Shown: positions 13,932-57,200 of the stretch, piece after piece
Numbering within the stretch: the first letter of the stretch is position 1
Layout: each line of letters opens with the position of its first letter
NCBI RefSeq assembly: GCF_016807805.1
Contig: NZ_CP063362.1
Location: 4,568,501-4,632,500 of the forward strand
DNA: 64,000 bases
Reading direction: 5' to 3'
From: Xanthobacter dioxanivorans
GTDB taxonomy: Bacteria > Pseudomonadota > Alphaproteobacteria > Rhizobiales > Xanthobacteraceae
Translations under genes and position numbers: made by a program
Notes under the pieces: model-generated
Told to the model about the DNA's origin: nothing
What the model saw: only the letters and a program-made list of their open reading frames with translations
Databases searched by the model: none

Positions 13932-15082
13932 TCAGCTCCCGGTGGCGGGCGCGGCGCGGTTGCGCACGTTCACCCGGCTGCCGTTGCGCAGCGAAAGCTG
14001 CCCGTCCGTCACCACCGTCTCGCCCCCGTCGAGCCCGGTCAGGACGACTGTCCGCCCCTCCAGGGTGCGTCCCACCTTCACCGGCTGCACCTTCGCCCTG
14101 CCATCGGCGACCACGAAGACGAAGGATCCATCCTGCCCGGCCTGCACCGCCTCGCTCGGCACGGCGACGATGTTCTGCTCTACCCGCAGCGTCACCGTGA
14201 CCGAGCCGAGGGTGCCCGGCCACAGCCGTTCGTCGTCATTGGGGAAGACGGCCCTGGCCGTCAGCGTGCCGGTCTGGGGGTCCACGGTGTTGTCGATCAC
14301 CGCCACCGCGCCGCCGGTGATGACCTCCCCGGAGCCCTGCAGCGTGATCGAGACCTTGGCGTCCTTGGCGGCGCGCAGCTCGCCGATATAGCGTTCGGGA
14401 AGACCGAAGGCGACGTAGATGGGCTTAAGCTGACGGACCGTGGCGAGGGTGTCGTCCACACGGATCACCGTGCCCGCCCGAACCGAAGACACGCCGATGC
14501 GCCCCGTGACGGGGATGTGATGTCGTAATAGCCGCGCTGGACCTTCAGGGATTGCAGGTTCGCCTCGTCCTGCTCCACCGTCGCCTTCTGCACGTCGGCG
14601 GTGGTGCGGGCATCGTCCACCTGCACCTGCGACACCGCATTGCGGGAGGCAAGGCCGGTATAGCGGTCCACGTCGCGTCGGGTCTTTTCGAGCTGCACCT
14701 TGTCGCGGGCGAGGGTTGCATCCGCCTGGCGAATCTGCGCGTCGATGACCCGGGAATCGAGGACGTAAAGGGGATCGCCAGCCTTCACGAAGGCGCCGTC
14801 GGCGAATCCCACCTTCTCCACCGCCGCCGCGACCCGCGAGCGGACCGGGACCGTAACCATGGATTCTACCGTGCCGAGGGCCTCCGCCCGCACCGGCAGC
14901 GCGGTGCGTTCCGCCTGCCCGGTGAGCACGGCCACCACCCGCTCGGAGGGGGCAGCCTGCGTCTTCGCCGCCGCGACGACCCAGGGCTTGTGCTCCCACA
15001 ACCAGTAGCCGCCAGCTCCGGCGGCGACCACCGCCAAGGCAAGGAAGATACGACCGGAACGCGACGCCTTCTGGACGGTCAT
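13932..15082 (-). pseudogene. RND efflux periplasmic adaptor (HlyD/MdtA-like), frameshifted as sequenced
   Basis: Membrane fusion protein linking the RND pump to an outer-membrane channel. Reading from ATG 15082 gives a membrane anchor, then the biotinyl/lipoyl and coiled-coil regions (TVPVRSRVAAAVEKVGFADG, KVQLEKTRRDVDRYTGLASR, LKVQRGYYDITSP). The frame then breaks at a C4 run (plus-strand G4 at 14511-14514). The other frame continues exactly where homologues do: VTGRIGVSSVRAGTVI, the beta-barrel and the membrane-proximal domain, ending at 13932. One extra base in the run gives 383 residues, the usual length. There is no other damage, so this is probably a sequencing error and the protein functional. 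Same operon as the pump. Confidence 0.9.
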
Positions 15083-15335
15083 GCGACCTCTCACCGAAAT
15101 CCGGGCCTTTCGACGAGGCCCAGTCCCACGACCTCTCCATGCTTCAGCATGGCAATGAAAAGACCTGCGCGGCGATGCAACATGAAATCGGCGGCCGCGT
15201 CCAATTAAGCTTTGGTCACCTGTACGCGGCCTTCCGGAGGGTGGGATGACGATTTCGTGAGCGGAGCAGTCGAAACCCGGCAATTCCGCTGCAACCTTGC
15301 GCCGAACTCCCAAAGGTCACTTTTGGCAGAGAGCC

Positions 15336-16523
15336 TCACCGCAGGCCCGGAACCTTGGCAAGGCGCTCGAGGGCCCGGTCGATTGTCGTGTCGTGCTTGG
15401 CGAAGCAGAAGCGCACCACGCTGCGCACCGCATCTTCCGCGTAGAATGCCGAGACCGGGATCGCCGCCACCCCGTGGGTGCGCACCAGATCGAGGCAGAA
15501 GGCCTCGTCGTCGGCCGCGTTGGTGAGCGGGGCGAGGTCGATGGACAGGAAGTAGGTGCCGCTCGACGCAAGCACGGAAAACCCCAGATCCGTAAGGCCC
15601 CGGGCCAGCCGATCACGGGAGCGCTGGAGCCCGGCGCGCATGCCGGTGAAATAGTCGTCCGACTTACCGAGCCCGTAGGCCACCGCCACCTGGAGGTTGG
15701 GCGGCGTGGTGAAGGTGAGGAACTGATGCGCCTTGGACAGCACCTTCATCAGCGCAGGTGCTGCGAACACCAGGCCCACCTTCCACCCCGTCATGCCGAA
15801 GATCTTGCCGGCGGAGGAGATCTTCACCGTCCGCTCGCGCATGCCGGGCAGGGCCATCACCGGGACGAAGGCGAGGTCGTCGAAGATGACGTGCTCCCAC
15901 ACTTCGTCGCACACGGCATATGCATCGAACGCGACGCAGAATTCGGCGAGCAGCGTCAGGTCCTGCCGCGAGTACACCACCCCGGTCGGGTTCTGCGGAT
16001 TGTTGAACAGGACCAGCTTGGTGCGCTCGGAGAAGGCGGCGGCAAGCTTCTCCCGCGTGATGTTCCACGCCGGAGGCTCCAGCCGCACCAGCTTCGCGAT
16101 GCCGCCGGCGCGGCGCACCAGCGGCAGATAGGCGTCGTAGAGCGGCTGGAACAGCACCACCTCATCGCCGGGCTCGATCAGGGCGAGCAACGCCCCGGCG
16201 ATCGCCTCGGTGGCGCCGGAGGTGACCATGACCTCGCTGTCCGGGTCGAGCTCCAGCCCTTGCCAGCGGCGATAATGCGCCGCAGCGGCGCGGCGCAGCT
16301 CCACCAGCCCCATCATGGGGGGATATTGGTTCCAACCATCCACCACGGCTTCCGCCGCCTTGCGCCGGACATCCTGCGGGCCGGGATCGTCGGGGAAGCC
16401 CTGACCGAGATTGACCGCATCATGGGTGCGGGCAAGATGCGACATCACCTCGAAGATGGTGGTCGGCAGCTCGGCATAGATCGGGTTGAGCGGGCGGGCG
16501 GGATGAGCGGCTGGCAGGGACAT
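15336..16523 (-). CDS. Class I/II PLP-dependent aminotransferase
   Basis: Cytosolic fold-type I aminotransferase, 395 residues. Visible elements: VNLGQGFPDDPGP (N-terminal substrate loop), SGATEAIAGALLALIEPGDEV (cofactor phosphate region), LVLFNNPQNPTGVVYS (the conserved NPxNPTG), the Asp of YAVCDEVWEHVIFDD that binds the pyridine nitrogen, and the Schiff-base lysine in SSAGKIFGMTGWKVG. C-terminal Arg in VRFCFAKHD binds the substrate carboxylate. The subgroup resembles kynurenine/methionine aminotransferases (YbdL/KAT-like), but amino-acid specificity cannot be fixed. ATG 16523 (MSLPAAHPARPLNP) is chosen over an in-frame ATG seven codons earlier. About 250 bases separate it from the adaptor gene, so it is not clearly part of that operon. 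Confidence 0.93.
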   Translation of the reverse strand: MSLPAAHPARPLNPIYAELPTTIFEVMSHLARTHDAVNLGQGFPDDPGPQDVRRKAAEAVVDGWNQYPPMMGLVELRRAAAAHYRRWQGLELDPDSEVMVTSGATEAIAGALLALIEPGDEVVLFQPLYDAYLPLVRRAGGIAKLVRLEPPAWNITREKLAAAFSERTKLVLFNNPQNPTGVVYSRQDLTLLAEFCVAFDAYAVCDEVWEHVIFDDLAFVPVMALPGMRERTVKISSAGKIFGMTGWKVGLVFAAPALMKVLSKAHQFLTFTTPPNLQVAVAYGLGKSDDYFTGMRAGLQRSRDRLARGLTDLGFSVLASSGTYFLSIDLAPLTNAADDEAFCLDLVRTHGVAAIPVSAFYAEDAVRSVVRFCFAKHDTTIDRALERLAKVPGLR

Positions 16524-16586
16524 GACGGTCGATCGCAAAGGCAAGGCGCCGCGCGGGCGCGGACGGAAACGCGAAGCTCGCGCCCT

Positions 16587-16907
16587 TTAGCCCTTATCGC
16601 TGGGCAGCGGAAGCCCGCCGCCTGCCGGGGCGGGTGCCCCGAGCGGCGCGAGGGCAGCGACCAGCGCCTCCGCCGTCACCTGCGCCATGGGCATCAGCAC
16701 CTTGGCGGCCTCGGTGCGGCGGCCGGGCCGCATGACGAGGACCACCGTCTCCGCGCCGCCGCAGGCTGGATCGCCGCAGGAGATTTCCGAGACAGAGACC
16801 GTGGCCGCTTCCTCCAGAGAGAGGGTTTCGCGCACCAGGTCGGCGAGCCGGCGGGCGGCATCGCGCTCGGGCCCGGCCTCGCCGCGCCGGCGCATGAACA
16901 GCCTCAT
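16587..16907 (-). CDS. Small conserved protein with a Cys-Gly-Asp-Pro-x-Cys motif
   Basis: 106 residues, start at ATG 16907 with a good GGAGG ribosome-binding site five bases upstream. The core ISCGDPACGGAETVVLVM resembles a family of small alphaproteobacterial proteins of unknown function with a CGxPxC signature; the two cysteines could bind a metal or form a redox pair. The rest is Ala/Gly-rich. It lies between the antiporter and aminotransferase genes, all on the minus strand (79 bases after the antiporter stop, 63 before the aminotransferase start). No function can be given. Confidence 0.7.
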   Translation of the reverse strand: MRLFMRRRGEAGPERDAARRLADLVRETLSLEEAATVSVSEISCGDPACGGAETVVLVMRPGRRTEAAKVLMPMAQVTAEALVAALAPLGAPAPAGGGLPLPSDKG

Positions 16908-16986
16908 GTGGTTCCTCCCGCGATCGGCCCCGTTTGCGCCGGCCTGTCTGCCGCCCCGGCGCGGCGGGAACGTGGCGAAGCCGGCA

Positions 16987-18762
16987 TCAATCGTCGTCGC
17001 TGTCCGGCTGCGACAGGCCGAGCAGGCGGCGCGCCCGGGCAATGCCGCGCTTCAGCCGCCCTGCCTCGAGCCGTAGGACGGCCCAGGTCACCCGCCCCTC
17101 CACCACCTCGCGCACCTCGATCACCGCATGCCCGTAGGCGATGCGCATGCCCGGCGCCGGATGGTCGTCGGAGCGGTCGGCGAAGGCCTCGGCGATGGTG
17201 AAGGCGTGTTCGCCGGTCGGCACCGTCAGCCCATAGAAGACGGCGAGGTCGCCGAGCTTCACCTCGCCGACGAAGGGGAAGGCCGCGCTGTCGTCGAGGG
17301 CGGTCGCCTCCTGGGGCCGAAACAGGCGATCGAGCTGGTGGACGCGCCGGGGCGGCGCGAGCACGTAGCCATAGTCGCCCGGCCTGAGCGCGCCGGCCGC
17401 CTCCGGGGTCAGGGTCTGGTTGGCGCGCACCACCATCACCAGCCGCGCCCAGTTGGGCAGCGTGCTCTGGCCGGCCACGGGCGTGCCCTCCGTGACCGGG
17501 TAGGCGACGAGTTCCATGTCGGTCTGGCCCGGCAGGTCGATCTCGAACCGACGGATGCCCGGCTTCGGGTCGGAAAGGGCGACGTCGAGCCGGCGGGCCA
17601 CCGCCGCCATGGTCCAGCCGTGCAGGATGAGCGAGACCAGCACCACCGTGAAGGCGATGTTGAAATACACCTCTGCCTGCGGCAGGTGCGCCAGCATGGG
17701 GATGGTGGCGAGGAAGATGGAGACCGCTCCGCGCAGGCCTGCCCAGGAGATGAACAGCTTCTCCTTGAAGGAGAAGCGGAAGGGCGCGAGGCAGGCGAAC
17801 ACCGCCGCCGGCCGCCCCACCGCGATAAGGAACGCCGCGACCCCGAGCGCCGGCAGGCCGTAGTGTATGATCTTCTGCGGCGAGACCAGCAGGCCCAGCA
17901 TCACGAACATGACGATCTGGCAGAGCCAGGTGACGGTGTCGAGGAACGAGGTGATAGAGGCGATGGCCCGCACCGGCCGGTTTCCCAGCACGAGGCCGGC
18001 GAGGTAGACGGCGAGAAAGCCGGACCCGTGCAGCAGCGAGGTGAGGGCGAACAGCAGGACCGCGACGCCCACAACCATGACGGGATGCAGCCCGCCGGGC
18101 AGATCCACACGATTGAGCAGGGAAACGAGGGCAAAGCCGCCGGCGACACCCAGCACCGCACCGAGCACCAGCTCGCGCAGCACGCCGAACACGACCATGA
18201 AGCCGGGGTCGGCCATGTTGCTGGTGAGAAGCTCCACCAGGAGCACGGTGAGGAACACCGCCGCCGGATCGTTGGTGGCGGATTCGATCTCGATCACCGA
18301 GCCGACCCGGCGGCCGAGATGCAGCCCCTGCGCCCGGACCAGGAACAGCACCGCCGCGGCGTCGGTCGAGGCCACGATGGCGCCGACCAGCAGGCTTTCC
18401 ATCGGCGACAGGTGGAGAAGCGGCGCGGCGACCAGCGCCACGAGGCCCGCGGTGAACACCACGCCCACGGTGGACAGGCCGAGCGCCGGCAGGATCGCAC
18501 CGCGCATGCTGGCGACGCGCATCCGCAGGCCGCCGTCGAAAAGAATGACCGCCAGCGCCGCCGAGCCCACCATGTAGGTGGCCCAGTAGTCATCGAAGTG
18601 AATTCCGCCGGGCCCTCCCTCGCCCGCGGCCATGCCGATGACGAGGAAGACGAGGAGGATGGGCGCGCCGAAACGTGCCGCGAGCAGGCTTGAGAGCGTG
18701 CCCACCACCACCAGCGCCGCCACCACCAGCAGCACCGCGTTTGAAATCACCACCGAACCCAT
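16987..18762 (-). CDS. K+/H+ antiporter, NhaP2/CvrA type, with regulatory C-terminus
   Basis: Monovalent cation:proton antiporter (CPA1 family), 591 residues. Residues ~1-395 form the transporter domain with the characteristic GSAALAVILFDGGLRMR, VGAIVASTDAAAVLFLVR and IEIESATNDPAAVFLTVLLV motifs; ATND carries the ion-binding Asn-Asp pair. The C-terminal ~190 residues contain a TrkA-C-like segment (DMELVAYPVTEGTPVAG, LRPGDYGYVLAPP) and a CorC/HlyC-like domain (FPFVGEVKLGDLAVFYGL), the arrangement of NhaP2/CvrA, which regulates ion balance and cell volume. Start ATG 18762 (MGSVVISNAVLL) is preferred over an ATG 11 codons upstream because it begins just before the first helix. Confidence 0.93.
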   Translation of the reverse strand: MGSVVISNAVLLVVAALVVVGTLSSLLAARFGAPILLVFLVIGMAAGEGGPGGIHFDDYWATYMVGSAALAVILFDGGLRMRVASMRGAILPALGLSTVGVVFTAGLVALVAAPLLHLSPMESLLVGAIVASTDAAAVLFLVRAQGLHLGRRVGSVIEIESATNDPAAVFLTVLLVELLTSNMADPGFMVVFGVLRELVLGAVLGVAGGFALVSLLNRVDLPGGLHPVMVVGVAVLLFALTSLLHGSGFLAVYLAGLVLGNRPVRAIASITSFLDTVTWLCQIVMFVMLGLLVSPQKIIHYGLPALGVAAFLIAVGRPAAVFACLAPFRFSFKEKLFISWAGLRGAVSIFLATIPMLAHLPQAEVYFNIAFTVVLVSLILHGWTMAAVARRLDVALSDPKPGIRRFEIDLPGQTDMELVAYPVTEGTPVAGQSTLPNWARLVMVVRANQTLTPEAAGALRPGDYGYVLAPPRRVHQLDRLFRPQEATALDDSAAFPFVGEVKLGDLAVFYGLTVPTGEHAFTIAEAFADRSDDHPAPGMRIAYGHAVIEVREVVEGRVTWAVLRLEAGRLKRGIARARRLLGLSQPDSDDD

Positions 18763-18909
18763 AACACCCCGACACGCCAGACTGGACAACCTCAACTCAA
18801 CAGTAGCGTCCGAAGGCCTCGCGGCGTAAGGTCCGTCACGTCGCGAGTGTGCGGGGCGTGCGCACGTGTCGCGAGCGGACCGGTCCGGGGGGCGGAAAGG
18901 GACGTGGAA

Positions 18910-19212
18910 ATGTCGTTGAGCGGCATTCCGTGCGCGTATCTAGTCACGTCTATGGTGCGTACTGAGCTAGGCGTTCTCACGGTGGAAGGCGAGACGGTCT
19001 GTCACGACCGCGATCTCGCTTTCGAGATGGCGGAGGCAGACTGCTGCCATTGCGATTGGGTCGGCGTCTATGCGCTCGATGCCAATGGTCGCTGCATCAC
19101 CGGCGCGCCCATCTACTTCTCCGGACTTCTGATCGCGCCCACGGACGCCTACGCGGTGCCGCTGCAGGCGCAGGCGACATCGGCATGGCGGCCGTATCCG
19201 CCCTTCAGCTGA
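18910..19212 (+). CDS. Hypothetical protein, 100 residues
   Basis: Begins at ATG 18910 with a purine-rich AAGGGACG sequence upstream. The protein is soluble, with two close cysteines in EADCCHCDWVG. The sequence reads like a real protein (balanced composition, TELGVLTVEGETVCHDRDLAFEMAE). I do not recognise a family. It is divergent from the antiporter gene (147 bases between starts) and convergent with the small zinc-ribbon-like gene whose stop lies 7 bases away. Confidence 0.55.
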   Translation: MSLSGIPCAYLVTSMVRTELGVLTVEGETVCHDRDLAFEMAEADCCHCDWVGVYALDANGRCITGAPIYFSGLLIAPTDAYAVPLQAQATSAWRPYPPFS

Positions 19213-19219
19213 GCGGGCC

Positions 19220-19456
19220 TCATCGACCGGCTCCCCGTCGCGCCACAAACGATATGGCCTGGAGCGGCGAGTCGACCTCCACCACATGAACCCGCCGGCT
19301 CCCGCACAGGTCGCACCGCAAGCGCGGTGGCGCCGCCGCCGTGTCGGGCACACCCGACCCGGATTCGGAGACGAGGGCTTCGGAGACGAGGCTTTGCGGC
19401 GCATGGCCGGAAAGGATGGATCGCCGCCCGCAGCGGCTGCATTCGGCGCAGATCAT
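19220..19456 (-). CDS. Small putative zinc-ribbon protein
   Basis: 78 residues with cysteines paired as CAECSRCG near the N-terminus and LRCDLCGSR at about residues 46-54, a spacing typical of a small zinc ribbon. The C-terminus (VVEVDSPLQAISFVARR) has no known signature. Similar short ribbon proteins of unknown role are frequent in Hyphomicrobiales. It is convergent with the 100-residue hypothetical gene and lies 58 bases downstream of another small minus-strand gene, with which it may be co-transcribed. Coding status is inferred from the Cys pattern. Confidence 0.5.
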   Translation of the reverse strand: MICAECSRCGRRSILSGHAPQSLVSEALVSESGSGVPDTAAAPPRLRCDLCGSRRVHVVEVDSPLQAISFVARRGAGR

Positions 19457-19514
19457 CCCCGCAACGGGCGCGCAAAAGACGTCGGCGTCAAGGCGGTTGT
19501 CTCAGCGCAGCGGG

Positions 19515-19757
19515 TCACAGCATTGCCTTGGCGTGAAAGAACCGGCGCACATGGCTTTCGGCAAAGGCAATGTCCTCCGGTCGTCCGGCCTGCGCCGCCT
19601 CCAGCAGCGCCTTCAGCGCCGAATTGAGCTGCGGCCCGCCGTCTCCTTGTGCAAATCGCTGGAGCAGGTGCCGGCCGCAGTCCCCCAGCGTGGCGAGCCA
19701 CGTCCCGTCGTGGAGCCAGATGGGGTGATGCAGATCGCTGTTCCAAAATCGCGCCAT
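19515..19757 (-). CDS. Small hypothetical protein, possibly DUF982-like
   Basis: 80 residues, ATG at 19757. The pattern DGTWLATLGDCGRHLLQRF followed by an Ala-rich helix ALKALLEAAQAGRPEDIAFAESH is loosely like the DUF982 family of small rhizobial proteins, but the match is weak and by eye. It sits downstream of egtD on the same strand (about 105 bases from the egtD stop). No function can be assigned. Confidence 0.5.
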   Translation of the reverse strand: MARFWNSDLHHPIWLHDGTWLATLGDCGRHLLQRFAQGDGGPQLNSALKALLEAAQAGRPEDIAFAESHVRRFFHAKAML

Positions 19758-23122: not shown

Positions 23123-23139
23123 CAGATGAGAACAATAAA

Positions 23140-24393: not shown

Positions 24394-27300
24394 TCACCGC
24401 GTCGGCGGGGCGTCGCTGGAATCCTTGAACTCGAAGATCTTGCGCAGGAAGCCCGGCGCCACCGCGGAGATGGGGTTGATGCGCAGCGTCGGCCCGCCCG
24501 CCAAAGGCCCGACGATCTCGAAGGTCACGCCCACGAGGCCCTCGTTCGGCCCGCCGCCCAGGAACAGGCCGATCACCGGCAGCTTCGAGAACATGTTGTT
24601 GAGGGCATAGGCCGGCACGAACGTGCCGCGGATGGAGATCCGGTCGCCGGCGAAATCGAGGGTGCCGTCGAAGGTGGCGCCCACCGAGGGTCCCCAGATG
24701 GCGCCCTCCTTGAACACGATCTTGCCGGTGGTGCGGGCGAACTGGGCCTGCGCCTTCTGGAACGAGGCGGTGCCGTCCTCGATCTTGCCGGAGGCATCGC
24801 GCGCCGCGCTGGACAGGCGCTCCAGCCCCGGCTCCCCCTTGATGGCGAAGTCGCGCACGTGCAGCACGCCCTCCTGCGGGGTGTTGTCGCTGCGCGGTGG
24901 ATCCACCACGATCCAGGCCTCGCCGCCCTGCACCTTGGGATAGATGTCGAGGAAACGCAGCAGCGCGCCCGCATCCGAGGTGGTCACCACCAGCGCCCGC
25001 TGGCGGCCCTGCCAGTTGCGCATCTCGCCGGCCACCGCGCCGTCGCGGCCCACCTTGGCGGTAAGGGTGAAATCCCGCGTCTCCACGCCCCGGCGGGCAA
25101 CGGAAAGCTCCATCTGGCGCAACACCTCGCCATTGTTTCCGGTGAGGGCGCCGATGCGCGCCTCCAGGTCCACGTCGGGCGTCTTCTGCGTCCGGCGCTG
25201 CACCGCCGGGGCGGAGACGAGGCTCTTCATGATGCCCCGGGCGTCCATCACGTCGCCGGTGATGCGGACCTTGAGCACGTCGCCGACCCTGTCGGCCTTG
25301 AGCGAGGCCTTGTCGCCGTCGGAAAGCTGGAACGTGGGGAAGACGGCGGAGATGAGGTCGCCGGTGTCGGAGAGCTCCAGCGCCCCCTTCAGCAGCGTGC
25401 CCGACCCATCCATCACCATGTCGTCGAGGCGGATCGTGTTGCCCTTGTCGTTCACCACGAACCGCGCCTTCATCGGCTTGCCGGCAGGCTTGCTGAGGCC
25501 GGGGATGAGGTCGGCGATGCGCGCCTGGGTCAGGTCGGTCTCGATGGTGGCCCGGGTGTCCTTGTTGTTGGTGGTACCCACCATGCGCACGCCGACCGGG
25601 CCGGACACGCCGGGAAGGTCGACCCCGAGGCGCCCGCGCGCGGCATCGTCGAGGGTGGCGGAGATGCGGATGTCGGAGTCCGCCGCGTCCTTCCTCTTTT
25701 CATACTCGAACGCCACCGGCGCCCCGGCGAGCTTGCCGTCGCCGCGCAGCACGATGCCGGACGGCGAGGCGAAGGCCTTCACCGTCGCCCCTTCCATGCG
25801 CTGACCCTTGAACACCTTGTCCACGCCGAAATCGGTGAGCGTCGCCTCAAGCGAATAGTCGAAATCCTCCGGCCGCCCCACCTTGCGGAAAAGGATGTTC
25901 ACCTGCAGCAGGGCGGAGAACTTGCCGCGCGTCGTGGACGGGTCGAAGGCGGTACCGGTGGGGCCCTTCAGCGGCTCCATGCCCAGCACCTCGATGGCGG
26001 CGTCGGCGGGACCGTCGAACTTCACGCGGATCTGCGCGGAGGGCTCGCGGGGAAGTAGTCCGGCAGCAGCATCACCCCGTCGCTCACCGCGATCTTGCGG
26101 TTCTGCGGCGTCACCGCAGTGCCGTCCGGCATGGTGATCCGCACCGAGCGGCCGGTGACGAGGATGGAGAGGTTGGCGTTGACGATGGGCGGCAGGCCCT
26201 TGACCGGACGCAGCGTGACGCCGTTTCCGTTGATGGTGAAGCGCACGCCGTCCTCCGGCATGGGCACCTGCTTCTGCCCGATGAGGTCGAGCGGCAGGAG
26301 CACCGCGACGGTGATGCCGTCGGCGGTCCCGCCGGAAACGTTCTCCAGCGCGAACTGGCGTGCGGGGGGCGCGATGGTCACCGGCCAGAAGCGCTTGATG
26401 GTCGCGACCGGCATGGGCGTGGCCGTGCCGTCGAACTTCAGGGTTGGCACGTCCACCCCGAAATCGAACATGGCGGTGAAGGAAAAGCTACCGGCGGCCG
26501 AGCCGAGGAAGCCGGTGTCGACGATGAGCCGCCGGCTCGGCGGATCGTAGCGTCCGCCCAGGTCCACCTTGTCGATGACGAGCGCGGGCTCGGGCATTTC
26601 CTTGCCGGCCAGCACCACCTCTTTCTGCCGGATATGGAAGGTCCATGGCGCCCGCGCCGTGGCGGGCACCGGCATCTCCCCCTGCAGGATGACGCGGTTC
26701 TCGTTCTTGATGGCCTCGATCGGCGCGAGCACGATGACGCGGCGGGCGAGGTCCAGGGTGGCGGCGACGCGCGCCCGGTCGATGACGAAGCGCTCCTCCA
26801 CCTCCTCGCCGTTGCCCAGGGCGCCGGCGCCGAGGTCGATGCTCGCGTCCGCCGCCCGAAGGTCGCCCTCCAGGGAGATCCGCGCGGTGACGGCGGCATT
26901 GAGGGGCGTGTCGATATAAAAGCGCCGGTGATCCTGGGTGAAGGCCTGGAGCAGGTCGCGGGTGGAGACGTTGCGGATGGAGACGTCGATGGCGCGCTCG
27001 CCATCCCTGGCGGCGCCGATCCGGGCCACGGCGGTGGCCACGCCCTGCGGCGACTGGGTGGTGAGGGTGAGCTGTGCCCCCCCGTCCCGTGGGCGCGCGA
27101 GGCGCACGCTGATGTGCTGGAACACGATGCGCCGGCCCGAACTCTCGTTCTCGACGATCAGCGTGCCGTCCTTGAGGCCCACATCGGCGAGCGCGCCGCC
27201 ATCGAAGCCGGCGGCCTCCAGTTCCGACATCCAGTGGGCAATGAAGACGGGTTTCAGCGGATCCATATCCACCGCCGTCGGCGGCGAGCCCGATGCCGGC

Positions 27301-27953
27301 TGCGACGCCCCGCCGGGGACTGAAGGCGCGGGTCCGCCCGCGGCGGGCGTGGTCGTCTGCGGCATCGCCTGGGGCGCATCGGCGCGCGGTGCGGACGCGG
27401 ACGGGAGCGACGAAGCCGAGATGGGTTTCGCGCCCTTGCCGGTGGTCACCGCCAGGTGCCCCGAAGCGGCGATGCGGACAGTCATCTCGGCGCCGACGAG
27501 ATCGATGCGCCGCGCCTTCGGCATCAGCGAGAGCAGCGAACCCTCGAGCTCCACCTCGGCGCTGGGGGCGCTCGCCACCAGCTGCCCGTCGGGACCCAGA
27601 ACCTTGATGTCATGCACCACCACCTGCGTCGCGCCGCCGCCGGTGGTCTCCACGGTGGTGCTGCCGATGTCCACCTTGTGACCGCCGCCGATCCGATCCT
27701 CGAGCGCCCGCTCGATATAGGGGGTGGCGATGTCGGCGGTGATGGTGCCCGTGGCGATGAGGGCGTAGAGGGTGACGGCGGCAACACCCCCGAGGGCAAT
27801 GAGCACGAGGCAGATGGCGCTGAATATGCGCGCGGCGCGGCTGCGCGGCGCGAGCGCTCCCATGATGCCCCGGAACCGCGAGCGGCGCGGCTGACGCCGC
27901 ACCAACTCGGGCTTGCGCACGCTCTCCTCCATCCCGTTCTTGTCCTTCCGCAA
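24394..27953 (-). pseudogene. AsmA-like (DUF3971) giant envelope protein, frameshifted as sequenced
   Basis: A very large protein anchored in the inner membrane and mostly periplasmic, of the YhdP/AsmA-like group thought to bridge the envelope and move phospholipids. The first part starts at ATG 27953 with one helix (ARIFSAICLVLIALGGVAAVTLYALI) and runs 643 codons to PDYFP, where the frame ends at plus-strand G4, 26049-26052. The other frame carries on as REPSAQIRVKFDGPADAAIE and continues to 24394, ending with the AsmA2-type block ALNNMFSKLPVIGLFLGGG and GLVGVTFEIVGPLAGGPTLR. One extra base in the run gives about 1186 residues. No other lesion is seen, so it is probably intact in the organism. 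Convergent with the monooxygenase gene. Confidence 0.9.
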
Positions 27954-34566: not shown

Positions 34567-36074
34567 ATGAGCGCATATTCCGACCTTTCCGCCCATTTCG
34601 CCCGGGCCTCGGCCCTGTCCAACGGCATCGGCATTCTCCAGTGGGACAGCGACACCATGATGCCGAAGGGCGCCGCCGGAACCCGGGCGGAGAGCCTGGC
34701 GCTGCTGCGCGTGCTCAGCCACGGCATGGTGACAGACCCGCGCATCGCCGACTGGATCGGCGCGGCCGGGAGTGAAGAGCTCGGTCCCTGGGAGCGCGCC
34801 AACCTGCGCGAGATGGAGCGGCTCTACACGGTGCAGACCGCTTTGCCCTCCGACCTCGTGGAGGCGTCCAGCAAGGCGGTGTCCAAGTGCGAGATGGCCT
34901 GGCGCAAGGCGCGCGCCGAGGCGGACTTTCCCGCGCTCCTGCCTTATCTGGGGGAGGTGCTGCGCCTGCAGCGGGAGATCGCCCGGGCCAAGGGCGAGAA
35001 GCTCGGGCTCCTGCCCTATGACGCGTTGCTCAACGATTACGAGCCCGGGGGCCGCTCGGCGCGCATAGACGCCTTGTTCGACGACCTCGCCGCCTTCCTG
35101 CCCGCCTTCACCGAGGAGGTGCTGGAGGTGCAGGCGCGTCGGCCGCCCACTCCGCCCTTGTCCGGCCCGTTCGCAGTGGAGGCGCAGCGGGCGCTGGGGT
35201 GGAGATGATGAAGGTGGTGGGATTCGATTTCGAGCGCGGCCGGCTCGACGTCTCCGTCCATCCCTTCTGCGGTGGGGCGGACAACGACGTGCGCATCACC
35301 ACGCGCTATGACGAAACCGACTTCTCCCGCGCCCTCATGGGCGTGCTGCATGAGACCGGCCATGCCCTCTACGAGCAGGGCCGGCCGCAGGCCTATCTTG
35401 AGCAGCCGGTGGGCGCCGCCCGCTCCATGAGCGTGCATGAGAGCCAGTCCCTGCTCATGGAGATGCAGGCCTGCCGCAGCCGGGAATTCCTCACCTTCGC
35501 TGCCCCGCGCATGCGGGCCGCCTTCGGCGCCTCCGGCCCCGGCTGGGAGCCGGATGCCCTGTGGCGGCTCTATACCCGTGTGGAGCGTGGCTTCATCCGC
35601 GTGGATGCGGACGAGGTGACTTATCCCGCCCACGTCATCCTGCGCTATCGCCTGGAAAAGGCGCTGATCGCCGACGAGATGCCGCTGTCCGACCTCCCCG
35701 CCGCCTGGGCCGAGGGGATGAAGGGGCTCTTGGGGGTGGTGCCGCCGGACGACCGCCTCGGCTGCCTGCAGGACATCCACTGGCCGAGCGGCGGCTGGGG
35801 CTACTTCCCCACCTATACCCTTGGCGCCATGACCGCCGCCCAGCTGTTCGATGCCGCCTGCCGGGCGGACGCCAGCATCCTGCCCGGCATCGCCCGCGGC
35901 GATTTTGCCCCCCTGCTCGCATGGCTGCGCGCGAACGTGCACAGCCAGGGCTCGCTGCTGGAGACCGACGACCTCCTCACCCGTGCCACCGGGCGGCCCC
36001 TCGATGCCTCGGTGTTCAAGGCGCACCTACGCCGGCGCTATGGCGGCGAGATGGAACAGGACGTGGCGGCGTAG
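34567..36074 (+). pseudogene. Carboxypeptidase M32 (Taq family), frameshifted as sequenced
   Basis: Zinc-dependent metallocarboxypeptidase. The first part (ATG 34567, MSAYSDLSAHFARASAL) runs to AQRALGW and stops; the other frame continues GVEMMKVVGFDFERGRLDVS, giving the catalytic HETGH (in VLHETGHALYEQG) with the third ligand in SVHESQSLLME, and ending at 36074. The break is a G4 run at 35196-35199; with one more G the reading is LGVEMMKV and the protein is 502 residues, the family length. There is no other lesion, so this is probably a sequencing error and an active enzyme. GGAGGG about 11 bases upstream supports the start. A strong terminator follows. Confidence 0.9.
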
Positions 36075-39427: not shown

Positions 39428-41389
39428 TCAGCCCACCGCGGTCACCCGCTCCCCGTTGATGCTGTCTTCGTCGCGGCGGTCCACCGCCCCGACGGCGTCG
39501 TCCACCCCTTCCGACACGCGGGCGAGGGCGTCGGCAGCGTCCTCGGCCTCCCGCTGCCGGTTCCACAGGGCAGCGTAGAGCCCGCCCCGCGCGAGGAGCT
39601 CGGCATGGCAGCCGCGCTCGGCGACGCGACCGTCCGCCAGCACCAGGATTTCGTCCGCCGCCACCACGGTGGACAGGCGGTGGGCAATCACCAGGGTGGT
39701 GCGCCCCTCGGACACGCGGTCGAGGGCGTCCTGGATGTCCTTTTCCGTGTGGCTGTCGAGGGCGGACGTGGCCTCGTCCAGCACCAGGATGGGCGGAGCC
39801 TTCAGGATGGTGCGGGCAATGGCCACGCGCTGCTTCTCGCCGCCGGAGAGCTTGAGGCCCCGCTCGCCCACTTCCGTCCTGTAGCCCTTGGGCGTGGAAC
39901 GGATGAAGCCGTCGATCTGGGCGAGGCGCGCCGCCTCCTCCACCTCCGCCTCCGTGGCGCCGGGGCGGCCATAGCGGATGTTGTAGGCGACGGTGTCGTT
40001 GAACAGCACGGTATCCTGCGGGACCATGCCGATGGCGGCGCGCAGGCTCTCCTGTGTCACCGCGCGGATGTCCTGCCCGTCGATGGTGATGCGGCCGGAG
40101 GTGATGTCGTAGAAGCGGAACATCAGGCGCGACAGGGTCGACTTGCCCGCCCCCGACGGCCCGACGATGGCCACCGTCCGGCCCGCCGGCACCTCGAAGC
40201 TGATGCCCTTCAGGATCTCGCGGCCGGCATCATAGGAAAAGCGCACATCCTCGAACCGCACCGTGCCGCCGGAGACCACGAGCGCCGGCGCGCCCGGCCG
40301 GTCCGTCACCTCCGGCGCGCGGGCGAGCACGGCGAACATGGCCTCGATGTCGACGATGGCCTGCTTGATCTCGCGATAGATGAAGCCGAGGAAATTCAGC
40401 GGGATGTAGAACTGCACCATCATGGCGTTGACCATGACGAAGGAGCCCACCGTCTGCCGCCCGGCGCGGATGTCGAGCACACACATCACCATCACGGCGG
40501 CGAGGCCGATGGAGAAGATGAAGGCTTGACCCGCATTCAGCCAGGCCAAGGACGTGAAGGTATTCACGGTGGCCTTCTCGTAGCGCGCCATGGAGCGGTC
40601 GTAGCGCGCCGTCTCCCAGCGCTCGGCGCCGAAATACTTCACCGTCTCGTAATTGAGCAGGCTGTCCACGGCCTTGGTATTGGCATCCGTATCGCTCTCG
40701 TTCATCTCCTTGCGGATGGAGAGCCGCCACTCGCTGGCATAGTAGGTGAAGAAGCCATAGAGCGCGACGGTGACGCCGACCACGGCGGCATACCGCCAGT
40801 CGAAGGCGAAGAAGAGCACCGCCATCACCATCACCAGCTCGACGATGGTGGGTGCGAGCTGGAGCACCAGCATGCGTACGATGGTTTCGATGCCGGACCG
40901 CGCCCGCTCCAGCACGCGGGTGAGGCCGCCCGTCTTGCGCTCCAGGTGGAAGCGCAGGGAGAGCGCGTGCATGTGCTCGAAGGTTTCCAGCGCCAGCTTG
41001 CGCACCGCGTGCAGCGCCACCTTGGCGAAGATGCCGTCGCGCAGCTGGGTGACGCCGGCCATGACGATGCGGCCGAGGCCGTAAGCGAGCGTCAGCGCCA
41101 CCGGCGCGCCGACCACGAGCGCCCAGAAGACCGGCTCCGGACCGCCGGTACGGCCGGCGGCCACCTCGGCGGTCAGGGCATCGGTCGCCCATTTGAAGAT
41201 GAAGGGCACCGCCATGGTCGCGCCCTTGGACGCAAACAGCAGCACGAAGGTGACGATCACCCGCGCCCGGAGATCCGCACGGCCCTTCGGCCACAGATAG
41301 GGCCACAGGGACCGCACCGTGCCGAACAGGGCGTCGGCGGAAACGGCGGGGCGCGTGCTGCCGCCGGCGGGAGGAGGCGTATCGGACAT
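39428..41389 (-). CDS. Atm1/HMT1-type ABC exporter (ATPase fused to membrane domain)
   Basis: 653-residue half-transporter: an N-terminal membrane domain with six helices and a C-terminal ATPase. The start GTVRSLWPYLWPKGRADLRA and FASKGATMAVPFIFKWATDAL are characteristic of Atm1-like proteins. ATPase motifs: Walker A VGPSGAGKSTLSRLMFRF, signature LKLSGGEKQRVAIARTIL, Walker B PILVLDEATSALD. Atm1 proteins export glutathione-linked sulfur compounds, and bacterial ones can confer heavy-metal resistance. The gene starts 6 bases after arsR stops, so metal-responsive expression is expected. It converges with the VOC gene. Confidence 0.94.
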   Translation of the reverse strand: MSDTPPPAGGSTRPAVSADALFGTVRSLWPYLWPKGRADLRARVIVTFVLLFASKGATMAVPFIFKWATDALTAEVAAGRTGGPEPVFWALVVGAPVALTLAYGLGRIVMAGVTQLRDGIFAKVALHAVRKLALETFEHMHALSLRFHLERKTGGLTRVLERARSGIETIVRMLVLQLAPTIVELVMVMAVLFFAFDWRYAAVVGVTVALYGFFTYYASEWRLSIRKEMNESDTDANTKAVDSLLNYETVKYFGAERWETARYDRSMARYEKATVNTFTSLAWLNAGQAFIFSIGLAAVMVMCVLDIRAGRQTVGSFVMVNAMMVQFYIPLNFLGFIYREIKQAIVDIEAMFAVLARAPEVTDRPGAPALVVSGGTVRFEDVRFSYDAGREILKGISFEVPAGRTVAIVGPSGAGKSTLSRLMFRFYDITSGRITIDGQDIRAVTQESLRAAIGMVPQDTVLFNDTVAYNIRYGRPGATEAEVEEAARLAQIDGFIRSTPKGYRTEVGERGLKLSGGEKQRVAIARTILKAPPILVLDEATSALDSHTEKDIQDALDRVSEGRTTLVIAHRLSTVVAADEILVLADGRVAERGCHAELLARGGLYAALWNRQREAEDAADALARVSEGVDDAVGAVDRRDEDSINGERVTAVG

Positions 41390-47351: not shown

Positions 47352-47989
47352 ATGAGTCCCGACGCGCCGCCCGGCATCGAGCCAGCTCATCCTCCCGCGT
47401 CGCCCTCCCCGGCGGCGGGCCGCCCCTTGGTGCAGGCGACGATCCTGGAGATCTTCCTCACCTTCCTGCTCATCGGCGCCACCAGCTTCGGCGGCGGGGT
47501 GGTCGCCTACCTGCGCAACGCCCTGGTGGTGCAGAAGGGCTGGCTGGACGAGGAGGAATTCCTCACCGCGCTGGAAATCTCCCAGGCCCTGCCGGGCCTC
47601 AACGCCACCAACATGAGCGTGATCGTGGGCGACCGCCTGCGCGGGCCGGTCGGCGCCGTGGCGGGCTTCCTCGGCATGACGCTGCCGGGGGACTGCTGGT
47701 GTTCGCCCTCGGCATCTTCTACGCGTCGAACCACGGCAACCCCGCCATGCACAAGGTGCTGGCCGGCATTGGCGCGGCGTCGGTGGGCCTTCTGGCAGCG
47801 GTCACGCTCCAGATCGGGCACAAGCAGCTGGAACACCTGCGCGAGATCGCGCTCATCGTCCTGACGGTGGCGATGGTGAGCTTCCTCCACATCTCGCTCA
47901 TCTTCGTGCTCCTCACCGTGCTGCCGTTCGCCGTCTTCATCTACCGCCCGCGCGGCGCCGGGCCGGACGCCCCGGGAGGCCAGTCGTGA
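47352..47989 (+). pseudogene. chrA: Chromate-type transporter, N-terminal half protein, frameshifted as sequenced
   Basis: First of two short CHR-family genes that together form a chromate or related anion transporter. The frame from ATG 47352 gives ILEIFLTFLLIGATSFGGGV, LRNALVVQKGWLDEEEFLTAL and GLNATNMSVIVGDRLRGPVG, typical of CHR proteins, then breaks at the G5 run 47687-47691. With one extra base it reads MTLPGGLLVFALGIFYASNH and continues with helices (VLAGIGAASVGLLAAVTLQI) to 47989, giving 212 residues. Other CHR features are intact, so this is probably a sequencing error. The second half overlaps by 4 bases (GTGA at 47986-47989). Confidence 0.88.
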
Positions 47990-49053: not shown

Positions 49054-49055
49054 GA

Positions 49056-51363: not shown

Positions 51364-51365
51364 GA

Positions 51366-51797
51366 ATGACCAACTCCGAACAAGGAGACCCGCCTCCATT
51401 GTGGAGGAGGCTCCTGATTTCTCCTGTGGTGGTGTGGGGGGTATGGGTGGCAGTTCTGATTGCTCACCTCTGGTGGCTATGCGTGGCCATGGACCCGGTT
51501 GTCGTCCAACGTTTCGGGGCATTCACCATCATCATCGGGATTTTGATGGCTGCTCGCCCCTATCTTCGAAATGGTCCTGAGAAGGTGACGCAAGCGGCTA
51601 TCCCGCGTCCTCCAGGACTTTTTCCGGTCAAGAGCGAAGATATCGCTCTCTATCGCGAGCGCGTCGCCAAAGAGGCTCCTGAGGTTCAGAAAGATGTGCT
51701 TGCCGAACGCCGGAATGGCGTTCTCATGGTCGGCATGGGAACGCTGATCAACGGCTACGGCGACGTGGTTGCGAAGTGGCTACTGGGCCAAGTTTGA
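51366..51797 (+). CDS. Small membrane protein of the island, unknown function
   Basis: 143 residues from ATG 51366. Two helices near the N-terminus (LLISPVVVWGVWVAVLIAHL and FGAFTIIIGILMAARPYL), then a soluble, charged C-terminal part ending GYGDVVAKWLLGQV. The same frame is open upstream through the tRNA-Glu gene, but that extension is not protein-like. Less GC-rich than the chromosome. No family recognised. It is the first gene inside the island and is transcribed away from the tRNA. Confidence 0.7.
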   Translation: MTNSEQGDPPPLWRRLLISPVVVWGVWVAVLIAHLWWLCVAMDPVVVQRFGAFTIIIGILMAARPYLRNGPEKVTQAAIPRPPGLFPVKSEDIALYRERVAKEAPEVQKDVLAERRNGVLMVGMGTLINGYGDVVAKWLLGQV

Positions 51798-51823
51798 GCC
51801 GCCAAGCCAGCCGTGCCGGGGTA

Positions 51824-52585
51824 CTAAAGCAATCCGAGTTGCCCCTTCTCGTCCAACCGAACCACCCCGAGGAGTTGCCACGTCTTGGGACGCTTCATCA
51901 TGTTCCCCGTGGCGAACAGCATTCCCTTGGCAGGATACTCGTCATTGAAGCGTCCGCCGAGCCGTTCCAGCGCTGACGCTTCTCCGTACCTCTTACGCCA
52001 GTAGAAGAAAGTGGCGTGCGTTTCCCAATCGCCGCAGGTCCAAGTATGCGGCCCTTCTGCGTCACGAAACGTGAACGCGAATGCGAAGGGGGTGGGCTCA
52101 AAAGCGGCCAAGTCCGCGTCAAGGAGGCTCTGCTGCCTTCCCGCTTCTCGGTATTCCCGGCGCTCTGCTTCGAGTTGCGCCTCGGATTTCCGACGCCAGC
52201 GAAATCTCGGATTGGAAGGCCGGATCAGGGCGAGAGAAGCGCCGGAGCTTGCCGCAGCCGATGCCGAGGGCATGACCATCGGGTCGAGAAGTGCAAACCT
52301 GTCGTTTTCCGGGAGGGCGCCGACAACCTTAATGGCATCCTCGAAGACGTGGCAACTTTCTCGACGACGATCTGTCGTGGGTGGCCGATGGGCGAATTCG
52401 ACCCAGTCCCAACGCCGAAAGCTCCGCCCACTGGTCAGTTGCCGAAAGCGCACCGGATACAGGCGTTTCCATTCCCGGCTCGCGGTAATCCCAGCGCAGC
52501 AGACGGTCTCGCCGTACTTGCTACTCGGCCGCGGCAAGGCCTTGATGATTATGACAGCGCGGGAAATTGGGAGAGTTGCGGACAT
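51824..52585 (-). CDS. Unknown protein encoded with DUF488 (island module)
   Basis: About 253 residues from ATG 52585. The N-terminal part VIIIKALPRPSSKYGETVCC followed by AGITASREWKRLYPVRFR is distinctive: a conserved Cys pair and a basic-aromatic stretch; the later part is charged (RKSEAQLEAERREYREAGRQ) and ends with TWTCGDWETHATFFYWRKRY and KRPKTWQLLGVVRLDEKGQL. Similar proteins accompany DUF488 genes on other mobile elements as I recall, but I cannot name a function. It overlaps the DUF488 gene by about 65 bases, so the two are coupled. An ATG 13 codons further upstream is possible. Confidence 0.65.
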   Translation of the reverse strand: MSATLPISRAVIIIKALPRPSSKYGETVCCAGITASREWKRLYPVRFRQLTSGRSFRRWDWVEFAHRPPTTDRRRESCHVFEDAIKVVGALPENDRFALLDPMVMPSASAAASSGASLALIRPSNPRFRWRRKSEAQLEAERREYREAGRQQSLLDADLAAFEPTPFAFAFTFRDAEGPHTWTCGDWETHATFFYWRKRYGEASALERLGGRFNDEYPAKGMLFATGNMMKRPKTWQLLGVVRLDEKGQLGLL

Positions 52586-53039
52586 ACCGTTGTGGATCAT
52601 CCGCATACAGATCGAAGGTTGCAAGCCCCTCTGCCGCCAATTCCCCAGCGATAATGGTCCGGTGACAGCCTTGCGGGTCTCGCTCGAAGCACATCATGCA
52701 GACCACATCAGTGGCGCAGCAACCTTCGAGGTTCGCGAGTGCTGAAATCGCTCCTTCAGTTTTCAGGTGGCGACTGTAGACGGCGCGGAACTCGTCCATC
52801 TCACCGCGGCGGGCGGCTTCTCGCCCCTCCTTGGGATCCCCAAGTTCGACAAAGTGGCGGTACGCGATGCCGGCCTCTTCTAGGTGCTGCCTCAAAGCGT
52901 TTTTAGAGAAGCCCTTCTTGCGGGAAATTGGAACGGCGCGGACGTCAGCCAGCATGGTGACGCCAACGGACTTCAGGACCGCGATGAATGCGTTGATCGT
53001 CGTGCCCTCATAGCCGACCGTATAGACCACCTGCATCAT
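52521..53039 (-). CDS. DUF488 family protein
   Basis: 172 residues. DUF488 signature: VVYTVGYEGTTINAFIAVLK at the start, LADVRAVPISRKKGFSKNA, GIAYRHFVELGDPKEGREA, and the Cys-rich region CCATDVVCMMCFERDPQGCHR with the final ELAAEGLATFDLYADDPQRY. Function unknown; the family often lies on mobile or defence-rich DNA. Overlaps the next gene downstream, so a two-gene operon. ATG 53039; a second M follows directly. Confidence 0.9.
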   Translation of the reverse strand: MMQVVYTVGYEGTTINAFIAVLKSVGVTMLADVRAVPISRKKGFSKNALRQHLEEAGIAYRHFVELGDPKEGREAARRGEMDEFRAVYSRHLKTEGAISALANLEGCCATDVVCMMCFERDPQGCHRTIIAGELAAEGLATFDLYADDPQRYVRNSPNFPRCHNHQGLAAAE

Positions 53040-53197
53040 GCGCTCCGCCGTTCGCCGGCTTTCAATGTGCCCCGCGCTCGGTTAACGCCACACTCCGCGG
53101 TTGCGCAAGGCGCTCTTTCGCAAAGAAACAGATCGGGAGAGGCACGTGCCGGAGAAGAGACAGATGGGCAGACGGGCGCATGGCAAATCGCCGAGCC

Positions 53198-53800
53198 TCA
53201 CCCGGCAGCCCCCACCACCCGTTGCACCGCCGACACGCCCACCCCCAGCGTCTTCGCCACCTTCAACATCCCCATGCCCTGCGCCCGAAGCTCCTTGATC
53301 CGTGCCTCGGTGTCTGCGCCCACCGTGGGCCGCCCCAGCTTCTTCCCCTCCGCTTTCGCCCGCGCGAGCCCGGCGTTCACGCGCTCCCGGATCATGGCCC
53401 GTTCGTATTCGGCGAACACGCCCATCATCTGGAACATGGCCCGGCCGGAGGGCGTCGAGGTGTCCAGGGCTTGCTGGTGCAGGTAGAGGTCGGCGCCACG
53501 GGCGTGAAGCTCGCCGAGGAAGGCCACGAGGTCCGCCATCGAACGGCCGAGCCGATCCACCGACCACGCGGCCACCATGTCCACCTCGCGCCGGGTCACG
53601 GCTTTCAGCATCGCGTCGTAGCCGGGGCGCTGGTCGCGGCCCTTGGCGCCGGAGACGCCGGCATCCTCGAACACGGCCACCACTTCCCAGCCGGCCTTCT
53701 CCGCCACGGCCTGAAGCTCGCGCCGCTGGTTCTCGGTGGTCTGTTCGGAGGTGGAGACGCGCAGATAGAGGGCGACGCGACGAACGGTCTTGCGGGACAC
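53198..53800 (-). CDS. Serine recombinase (resolvase/invertase family)
   Basis: 200 residues from GTG 53800. The catalytic N-terminal domain holds the nucleophile Ser16 in ALYLRVSTSEQTTENQRREL; other active-site arginines are in YDAMLKAVTRREVDMVAAWS and VDRLGRSMADLVAFLGEL, followed by the E-helix FQMMGVFAEYERAMIRERVN. The C-terminal HTH is GMGMLKVAKTLGVGVSAVQR. Size fits a small resolvase. Its GTG is preferred because the ~60 residues upstream are not protein-like. It is a second recombinase in the island next to the tyrosine integrase. Confidence 0.93.
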   Translation of the reverse strand: MSRKTVRRVALYLRVSTSEQTTENQRRELQAVAEKAGWEVVAVFEDAGVSGAKGRDQRPGYDAMLKAVTRREVDMVAAWSVDRLGRSMADLVAFLGELHARGADLYLHQQALDTSTPSGRAMFQMMGVFAEYERAMIRERVNAGLARAKAEGKKLGRPTVGADTEARIKELRAQGMGMLKVAKTLGVGVSAVQRVVGAAG

Positions 53801-54238
53801 GGCAGGGGCTCCGGGAAGCTGGTGATATCCATACCGATAACAAGTGTTTACGGAATGCGTCAAGCCCCCTTCGCAAACCGGCATGGATGCTGGACTGGAC
53901 ACGGCAATTTTCAGCAAGGGTTTCGGTATGGGGCCTTCCGCCTCCCTCGCGGCCCTGGGAGAGGCCGGACAGAGGACAACCGACAACGCCTCTCCGGTGC
54001 GTCACGCCTACGCGCGGCTTGCCGTATCGCTCACGCGAAAGATGCTAGCCGCACCCGCGAAACCGCCCGCGCGACCTGACGCGCCCGTGCGCGACACCGT
54101 GCGCCTGATGCGCGAGGGGGCACGGGGGGTATCGCGCGAGCCTTTTTCAATCGACACCGTTTCAGAAATTTCGGCCAAATATCGCCGGTGCTCCTCCGAC
54201 GAGCCGGGGGTCGGACCCGGCAACGTGGAAGGGAAGCG
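53801..54238. other. 438-base gap, recombinase upstream region
   Basis: No gene with support. An open frame at 53844-54278 is Arg/Pro/Ala-rich and unlike a protein. The first ~60 bases upstream of the recombinase are AT-richer (CCATACCGATAACAAGTG) and could contain its promoter or a recombination site; no clear res sub-sites can be resolved by eye. Confidence 0.45.
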
Positions 54239-57200
54239 CTACTGCACCGTGCCCATGACGGCGTCTGGCAGGGAATAACCCGTCTGGCTCTTGGGGGCGA
54301 ACCTCGGGGCATCCTGGACGAGGAGACCGAGGGCCGACTGGACAGCGATGTTATTGCTGAACGGCAGGATCGACAGCATCTGCCGCCACTCGGGTTGAGA
54401 CCGCTCCCGCCCGGCCACGATGGGCTGCATGAAGGCGCTCGGGGCGACCCTGAAGAGGTTGTTCAGGAACGTGACCGAGGGGTTGCCGAACCATGCGTCG
54501 GACGGCAGGGCAGAGTTGCGGAAGCCGAAGATCGGGTTGGCACCGGCCACGCCAATCCCGGTGTCCACCAGTGCCGGAATGAGCGAGGAGTAGGCGCCGA
54601 GCTGGAAGATGGCCGCGGCGAAAGCGCCGGGGGCGAAGCGCTCCTGGAGGTGCTTTTCGGGGTCGGAGCGAGTGGCAGCCTCGATCCGAGTCCGGACGGC
54701 GTACAAGGCCGCCGCGGCGAAGGTGGAGGCGACCACGTCCCAGAACACCTCCGGGTCACGCATGGCGTAGCCGTGAAGGATGTTCATGTGCCATGCGTTC
54801 AAGCCGAACCGGCGGAGCTGGGAGAAGGTCCGAAAGATCGGAGAGCGGTCCCAGACCGTGCCGGCCCCGAAGTCGTGCTCCATACTGGCCCGGCCGGCGG
54901 CCCGGTTGAGGGCCATGGTGAAAGCGTGCTTCGCTTCCACGTCCGTCCAGGCGTCCGGGTTCAGCCGGTTGAGCTTCGCCCCGGTCCAATGGTCCACCGT
55001 CTCCCCGTGCTCCTTCACCTCTCGGAGGACGCGGACAAGCATGTCGTCGCCGAGGCCAAACCATTTCATCCGGTTCAGCTCCGCCGGTGACAGCTTGGCG
55101 AGGTCCGCGGCGGCACCACCGGCGAACACCTTCTCCGCATCGCGGTAGAAGCGCGACGCCATCACGCGCCGAGCCGCCTCCCGAACACCGCGGTTGATGA
55201 TGTTCATGCCGGAGAGGTGGACCACGGCGTCAGCCCCGGTGCGCGTGTAGCCCCCGATCTTGTCGAGGGCGCCTTGCATCGGCGTCGTCAGCATCCCGTC
55301 TTCGGGGAGCCGGCGGGCCGACAGGTGCCGAAACTCGTCGACGGCACCGAAGGCCGCGATATCCATGGCGAGGTCGCTACGGGGGCGCAGAACACCCCCT
55401 TGCACGATCTCGGTACGGAAGCCGGGCAAGTGCTGAAGCATGGCCCGAAGCCCCCGACAGTGGCGATGCGGGCCATGTCGGGAATCGCGGAGAGGCCGAA
55501 GTTGCCCGCCGAGGTCATGGTTGCGAGTTTGCGGATGATCTCGGCGCCCTTGGCCACGGTCGACGATGCCTTCTCATGGGGGACACCGAACAGGCGGTCG
55601 AACATCTCCCGGAGGAGAGCTGTGTCGTCCTCGATCTGCTTGGGCGTAAGGCCCGCTTGATACCCCTTGTCGGCGACCTGTTGCAGGACGTCGCTGATTT
55701 CCTTTCGGGACCGGACGCCGTCCAGCAACACCTCCCCATCACCCCTGACGATCTGAATGCGACCCGCCGCCCGCCATGCCGAGGCTTGGTGGTTATAGTG
55801 GTCGAAGAGGTCGAAGGCGTTGGTCTCGGTGAAGTCGCCGAGCTTGAGGCCGGTCCTCGGATGGACGAAGGTCTCGTCGAGGTCCAGGCGGAGGTGAGTG
55901 AAGCCGGGCTTGGAGCCCTTCGGCAGGCGGGCAAGAATGTCGGCGATGTCCGCTTCCGACATGCCGATGTCCAGCATGCCGGAGCGCAGAACGTCCGCCG
56001 TCGCCCCGTCACGGGCCATCATGGCGAACTCGTCGAGGTTGAAGCCCCGACGCACGACGCCACTGTAAAGCCCGCGGGCAAGGGTCTCGGCTTTGTCGCC
56101 AAGCTCCTTATGCGCGGACAGGAGAGAGCCTTCCAGCCATCCGATGAACTTCCGGCCCGTGGGGTCAATCGCCATGATCTTGTCGAGGCGGTAGACACGG
56201 GGCATGTAGCGCGGATTGGCGGGGACATGCTCCAACCCGGCGAGGGGACGGCCGGGGTTGTCCGGGGTCTCAGGCCGGGGCGTGATGTTGCCTTGCCGGT
56301 GCTCTTCCAGGGCCGTTCCCAGCTCCTTCGACACCTTCACCACCTGGGGGTCATAGTGGACGTCCCGGTCGGCCCGAAGGTCCCGGCGGTGGGCCGTGAT
56401 CTGCTCGGCGAAGGTCTCCCACTCGTCCGTCAGGCGCGGGGAGACCCGCTTCATCCAGTTGACGCCCCGCGCCTTGGCCCACTCGTCAAACTGGGGATAG
56501 GCCACGCTGTACAGACGATTGCTACCGGCGCTCATGATCCGCAGCTTGTCCTCTCCGGCGGAGAACGGATTGACCGCCATCTCGCCGTTGGGGCCGACCT
56601 TGCCCACCACGTCGAGACCGAGCGACTGGGAGACCGCCCGCATGAGCGGGTTGTCGGAGGTGGCGCCACGGCCGGCCATATCAGGGCGGAGGCTCTCCAC
56701 TGCGGTGCGTGGCACGTCCGCGTCGACGATGGACATGAGGTCGCCCTGGGAGAGCTTAACGTTGTCGACCGCAGCGGGAGCGGCACTCAAGGTCCCCTCG
56801 CCACCGGAGAAGCGTGGAACGCCACGTTCAATGTCCGTCATCGCCCGGCTTGCAGCGTGGGCGCCAGCGTCGGCAAGGTCCTGCGTCGCAGGGTTCCGGG
56901 CGAACGGCCCGAAGGCGAACCCGAGACCGAGACCCCAGGCGGCGGCGTAGGCATAGTCGGAACTGGTTGTTTCCTTACCAGCGGCATTGGCGATGCCTGT
57001 CAGGGCAACATTACCCGCCGCGGCACCCAGACCACCCGCGACACGCTGGACAAGCCTGCCGGCCTTCATGGTCCCGCCAGCGAAGGCACCGAGACCGCCA
57101 GAGGCAATCCCCGCACCGAGGCTGACAGGATCGAGGATGTCGGTCGCAAGCTGGATGCCGGTGCCGGTCCACCCTGCCTCGGCGAGGGTGCGCTCGTTCT

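Follow-up and report, generated by a model that had tools for sequence, protein, structure and literature searches.

The window analysed here is a 64,000-nucleotide stretch of the Xanthobacter dioxanivorans chromosome, positions 4568501-4632500 of contig 1 of a 6.65 Mb genome in five contigs. Three relatives have chromosomes about 0.9 Mb smaller, and the gene order here looks strongly rearranged, as the genes of a 20 kb stretch of one relative match scattered places on it. Five genes of the window each fall into an N-terminal and a C-terminal piece in different frames, with a short G/C run at the break:

13932-15082, minus strand: RND/HlyD-type efflux adaptor, whole gene, 1151 nt
14516-15082, minus strand: adaptor, N-terminal piece, open from an ATG start; Biotin_lipoyl_2 match below the cut-off
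14511-14514, minus strand: adaptor break, G/C run of 4
13932-14510, minus strand: adaptor, C-terminal piece in the other frame; HlyD_D23 117-212 and HlyD_3 6-103
24394-27953, minus strand: AsmA/YhdP-like protein, whole gene, 3560 nt
26055-27953, minus strand: AsmA/YhdP-like protein, N-terminal piece; YhdP 6-127, below the cut-off
26049-26052, minus strand: AsmA-like break, G/C run of 4
24394-26046, minus strand: AsmA/YhdP-like protein, C-terminal piece in the other frame; YhdP 601-892, below the cut-off
34567-36074, plus strand: M32 carboxypeptidase, whole gene, 1508 nt
34567-35193, plus strand: M32 carboxypeptidase, N-terminal piece; Peptidase_M32 2-204
35196-35199, plus strand: M32 break, G/C run of 4
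35199-36074, plus strand: M32 carboxypeptidase, C-terminal piece in the other frame; Peptidase_M32 209-489
47352-47989, plus strand: chromate transporter half, whole gene, 638 nt
47352-47684, plus strand: chromate transporter half, N-terminal piece; Chromate_transp 1-82
47687-47691, plus strand: chromate transporter break, G/C run of 5
47693-47989, plus strand: chromate transporter half, C-terminal piece in the other frame; Chromate_transp 86-161
54239-58314, minus strand: phage internal virion protein, whole gene, 4076 nt
55456-58314, minus strand: virion protein, N-terminal piece; phrog_342 19-855
55451-55455, minus strand: virion gene break, G/C run of 5
54239-55450, minus strand: virion protein, C-terminal piece in the other frame; phrog_342 861-1232

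All five runs were found where the preliminary description had located them, and its statement that each gene is one base short of a multiple of three was reproduced by the recomputed lengths, all of which equal 2 modulo 3. None of the ten gene pieces contains an internal stop. When the pieces were searched separately, those of the M32 carboxypeptidase, the chromate transporter half and the virion protein matched consecutive parts of one family profile in each of the three pairs. The adaptor halves match different but compatible domains rather than one profile, and the two YhdP matches of the AsmA-like halves come in the right order but below the cut-off; for these two genes it is therefore the relatives that settle whether the halves belong together. 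A G/C run of four or more bases is present within 6 nt of 11.6% of coding positions, which puts the chance that all five breaks would be so close to one at about 2e-5.

Conservation analysis showed that both halves of the AsmA-like gene share one frame in 13 of 13 relatives, those of the chromate transporter in 10 of 10, and those of the M32 carboxypeptidase in 94 of 94 relatives' loci, some of which are one genome counted twice. The nearest named loci of the M32 C-terminal piece are mostly from Xanthobacter, with 84-90% amino-acid identity. Of the 14 adaptor loci in relatives, 12 hold both halves in the same frame, and the remaining two have one piece or none. Halves in different frames were thus seen in none of the relatives examined for these four genes, so that for four of the five genes the search for relatives sharing the frameshift, the observation which the preliminary description held would speak against an error, was negative.

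Alignments spanning the break give the relative one extra base in 12 of 12 cases for the adaptor, 13 of 13 for the AsmA-like gene, 51 of 53 for M32 and 8 of 9 for the chromate transporter. These cover 53 of the 94 M32 loci, while two of the 14 adaptor loci and one of the 10 chromate loci did not align at the site; the exceptions are two M32 rows without a net difference in a short span and one chromate row that is four bases longer. A G/C run of the same length is often absent at the site in relatives (in M32, 13 of the 14 rows listed have a run of three or fewer), so a shortfall in the run itself is not provable from sequence alone. Of the earlier claim that each run needs one more base, the one-base shortfall at or beside the run is borne out, and its placement inside the run is not proven. 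Each of the four genes was compared with two relatives, and the pN/pS values to either side of the break fall within 0.17-0.35, including 0.26-0.29 for the adaptor C-terminal piece and 0.21 for that of the AsmA-like gene. The absence of stops and, in these four genes, the low pN/pS values agree with the earlier view that both sides of every break read as protein and that no second lesion is present.

In 60 other genomes of the family the virion gene has no real match, four of them containing no more than short matching stretches (E of 5e-5 or weaker), and a viral contig search with its N-terminal piece found nothing. Both of its parts are present, at 25-26% identity (25.5% for the N-terminal piece), in Mesorhizobium phage Lo5R7ANS, at a gene annotated as a putative internal virion protein, and the match coordinates place the N- and C-terminal matches in a single frame of that phage. 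Within the same genome, 297 bases of the virion gene are 70% identical to positions 40371-40667 of the 145 kb contig C3.

For a genome-scale count of frameshifts, samples of this genome and of the relatives G012 and G003 served to train a coding HMM, and the coding segments were then compared between genomes. A first setting of the HMM gave zero frame switches; as used here, it switched frame at all five breaks. The comparison revealed six distinct frameshifts in 140,806 comparable nt of this genome, four of which are window breaks. The window accounts for four in 34,630 nt and the sequence outside for two in 106,176 nt, one of these doubtful because it lies in a poorly aligned gene end; the difference in density (P 0.036) arises partly because the window was picked. 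In three relatives, only one frameshift was found in 956,503 nt (G012, 0 in 294,388; G003, 0 in 295,479; G001, 1 in 366,636, a gain). The excess in this genome has a P of about 3e-5 including the four preselected window breaks and of 0.028 outside the window alone, where two of three events fall here; the control genomes overlap in gene content and are not fully independent. In a test blind to direction, all six frameshifts of this genome, the four window breaks among them, are losses modulo three. Ab initio, frameshift-like switches number 6.0 per 100 kb of coding sequence here, versus 2.6 in G012 and 2.7 in G003.

Two simpler approaches were abandoned. A tblastn split test with all open reading frames reported frameshifts in every genome, as shadow reading frames in GC-rich DNA are also alike, and was replaced by the coding-HMM segments. 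HMM frame switches as the sole filter were set aside as well: 85 of 105 in a 400 kb sample were of the overlapping-gene kind, a label that also caught the AsmA-like and M32 breaks. Near-identical repeats, with thresholds of 300 bases and 93%, which could have provided an internal control, were absent from 596 kb.

Loss-direction breaks recur elsewhere in the genome. Apart from one that was too short, there were 46 loss-direction candidates, four of them window breaks, and 11 of the other 42 junctions were tested by family: four split a single family, five are junctions between separate genes and for two the matches were too few. Five of 15 candidates in the gain direction were tested as well: four proved to be two-gene junctions and one lacked a family match, so no gain was confirmed. 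Together with mutL and a D-Ala-D-Ala ligase gene, six further genes are split in the loss direction, each with a G/C run of at least four at the break:

mutL, L298:7906-9539 (contig C1, about 643906-645539), minus strand: profile 1-152 and 151-554
D-Ala-D-Ala ligase, adjoining ftsQ and ftsA, L301:3738-4660: profile 5-115 and 127-304, beside a run of seven G
FecCD permease: profile 2-139 and 142-310
phytoene synthase: profile 2-188 and 194-262
sugar-acid hydrolase: profile 1-244 and 246-282
autotransporter beta-domain: profile 1-118 and 123-254

The ligase split was deduced from these profile matches. mutL is in one frame in all nine other genomes of the genus searched (one full match in seven, two matches in the same frame in two), and here it is one base short against two aligned relatives. 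The loss-only direction and uniform G/C context that had been described for the window, 5 of 5 in both respects, thus recur in six further genes. The autotransporter gene (L104:12317-16291) has three loss-direction switches in about 2.3 kb, one backed by the family split and another by a relative. A stretch of contig C2 (L178:1659-3728) has four in about 1.8 kb, only one of them obviously at a G/C run of at least four, and may be a decayed plasmid gene.

Other genes are whole, namely rpoB, both DNA polymerase III alpha-type genes, mutS and rpoA. In the ribosomal cluster, no break was found in 31 coding segments covering 17.5 kb, and its 13 frame switches were by eye all gene junctions; gene names in this cluster were read from the sequences, rpoA alone coming from a search. 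The 400 kb sample contains nine split genes and, in its coding sequence, 509 runs of five and 80 runs of six, which amounts to about 1.5% of runs affected, a lower bound as many genes were not comparable. G/C runs of at least four are about five times as common in this genome as A/T ones, and the base after a C run of four to five is, as background, G in 53%, T in 24% and A in 23% of cases. A shortening of the G/C run spectrum was looked for and not found, runs of six and seven not being depleted compared with relatives. The contamination estimate of the genome is 2.82%, where among 13 other genomes of the genus 11 have 1-2 and two have 3; this could, on weak evidence, stem from split marker genes.

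The best explanation of the five breaks, to which we give a probability of roughly 0.88 on the strength of sequence comparisons, is that they are leftover homopolymer-deletion consensus errors in a long-read assembly. In a small fraction of the short G/C homopolymers, one base would have been dropped, so that an intact gene would read as two pieces. The living strain would then carry the genes intact; that the sequencing technology was long-read is suggested by the five contigs for 6.65 Mb. Intact relatives, recurrence in further genes and the lack of a confirmed gain all favor this error, which the preliminary description had also proposed, although its term "systematic" is too strong: given the unshortened run spectrum, the error would be occasional. 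Long-read homopolymer errors provide a parallel, as the passages considered of the Kastor paper (PMC12007338) describe a nanopore assembly with single-base losses beside runs of about four to five that fragment genes intact in relatives, deletion errors peaking after four to five identical bases. In the same passages, however, that assembly (59% GC) was affected mostly at A/T runs, the commonest error sites, with about half as many at G/C runs, whereas only G/C runs are seen to be affected here. This difference lowered our probability for consensus error from 0.90 to 0.88 and slightly raised that for a mutator. The undepleted runs of six and seven, the greater density of breaks in the window than outside it and the unbroken state of rpoB, DNA polymerase III alpha, mutS, rpoA and the ribosomal cluster likewise count against consensus error, as does the split mutL, which would be expected of a real mutator too.

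Five independent natural pseudogenes would suit genes that are plausibly dispensable, and the virion gene is indeed without relatives in the family. We nevertheless consider this origin very improbable, in agreement with the preliminary description: all five breaks share the same direction and context (the context alone having the chance of about 2e-5 given above), no further lesions are present, four of the genes are under purifying selection on both sides, and frameshifts are more frequent here than in relatives. Phase variation, or programmed slippage within the homopolymers, is just as improbable. The break sites are homopolymers, as such switching would predict, but tracts of four to five bases are short, and the frame is kept in relatives even where the run is missing, as it often is, which supports the earlier judgment that phase variation is the less likely alternative. 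Moreover, the five broken genes are presumably not typical contingency loci.

Because mutL is split, a real mutator, which the preliminary description does not consider, is the main rival to consensus error: without functional mutL, genuine slippage by one base in G/C homopolymers would pile up genome-wide. The contrast between the split gene here and the single frame in nine of nine other genomes of the genus fits this scenario, and so does the likeness to mismatch-repair-deficient mutators, in which a repair gene is broken, as it apparently is here, and one-base indels occur in short G/C runs. In repair-deficient P. aeruginosa, the portion of the study considered (PMC4702332) reports 104 of 108 indels in G:C runs, mainly homopolymers of 5-7 bases and most often of 6 bp, an exclusiveness nearly as great as here. 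The same portion puts the ratio of insertions to deletions at 3.32, and the parts considered of a study of P. fluorescens ATCC948 (PMC4316635) describe an insertion bias too. In contrast to both Pseudomonas studies, confirmed events here are losses only. At the P. aeruginosa ratio, the probability of losses alone is 7e-4 for five genes and 1e-7 for eleven, the latter overstated, as the candidates from which four of these eleven genes were taken were losses only. A deletion bias is described for wild-type Vibrio lines in the sections considered of PMC5854121; indel bias thus varies between species and the argument from direction is not absolute. The mutL lesion is, furthermore, no different in kind from the others, which also affect a peptidoglycan-ligase gene. 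The five breaks lack a second lesion, and selection is not relaxed in the four genes tested. With no gain confirmed, against the insertion bias of repair-deficient Pseudomonas, we regard a real mutator as unlikely, with odds somewhat below one in ten, and the split mutL as probably another error, although it would make the strain a mutator if real. Slightly less likely still is the more specific picture of a true mutL mutator whose slippage at G/C runs of about 5-6 would only remove bases, in contrast to the insertion-biased Pseudomonas mutators, with the window as a snapshot of ongoing gene loss.

Homopolymer sequencing error, an ordinary artefact, is thus by far the likeliest cause of the five breaks: the sequence feature is real as deposited, and the biology behind it is most likely not real. 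Users of this reference would call mutL, D-Ala-D-Ala ligase and phytoene synthase broken, and, if the breaks are artefacts, a false mutator story could follow, as the assembly points, in all likelihood wrongly, to a mutator deficient in mutL. Our analysis suggests that indel direction at homopolymers can help to distinguish assembly error from a mismatch-repair mutator without reads.
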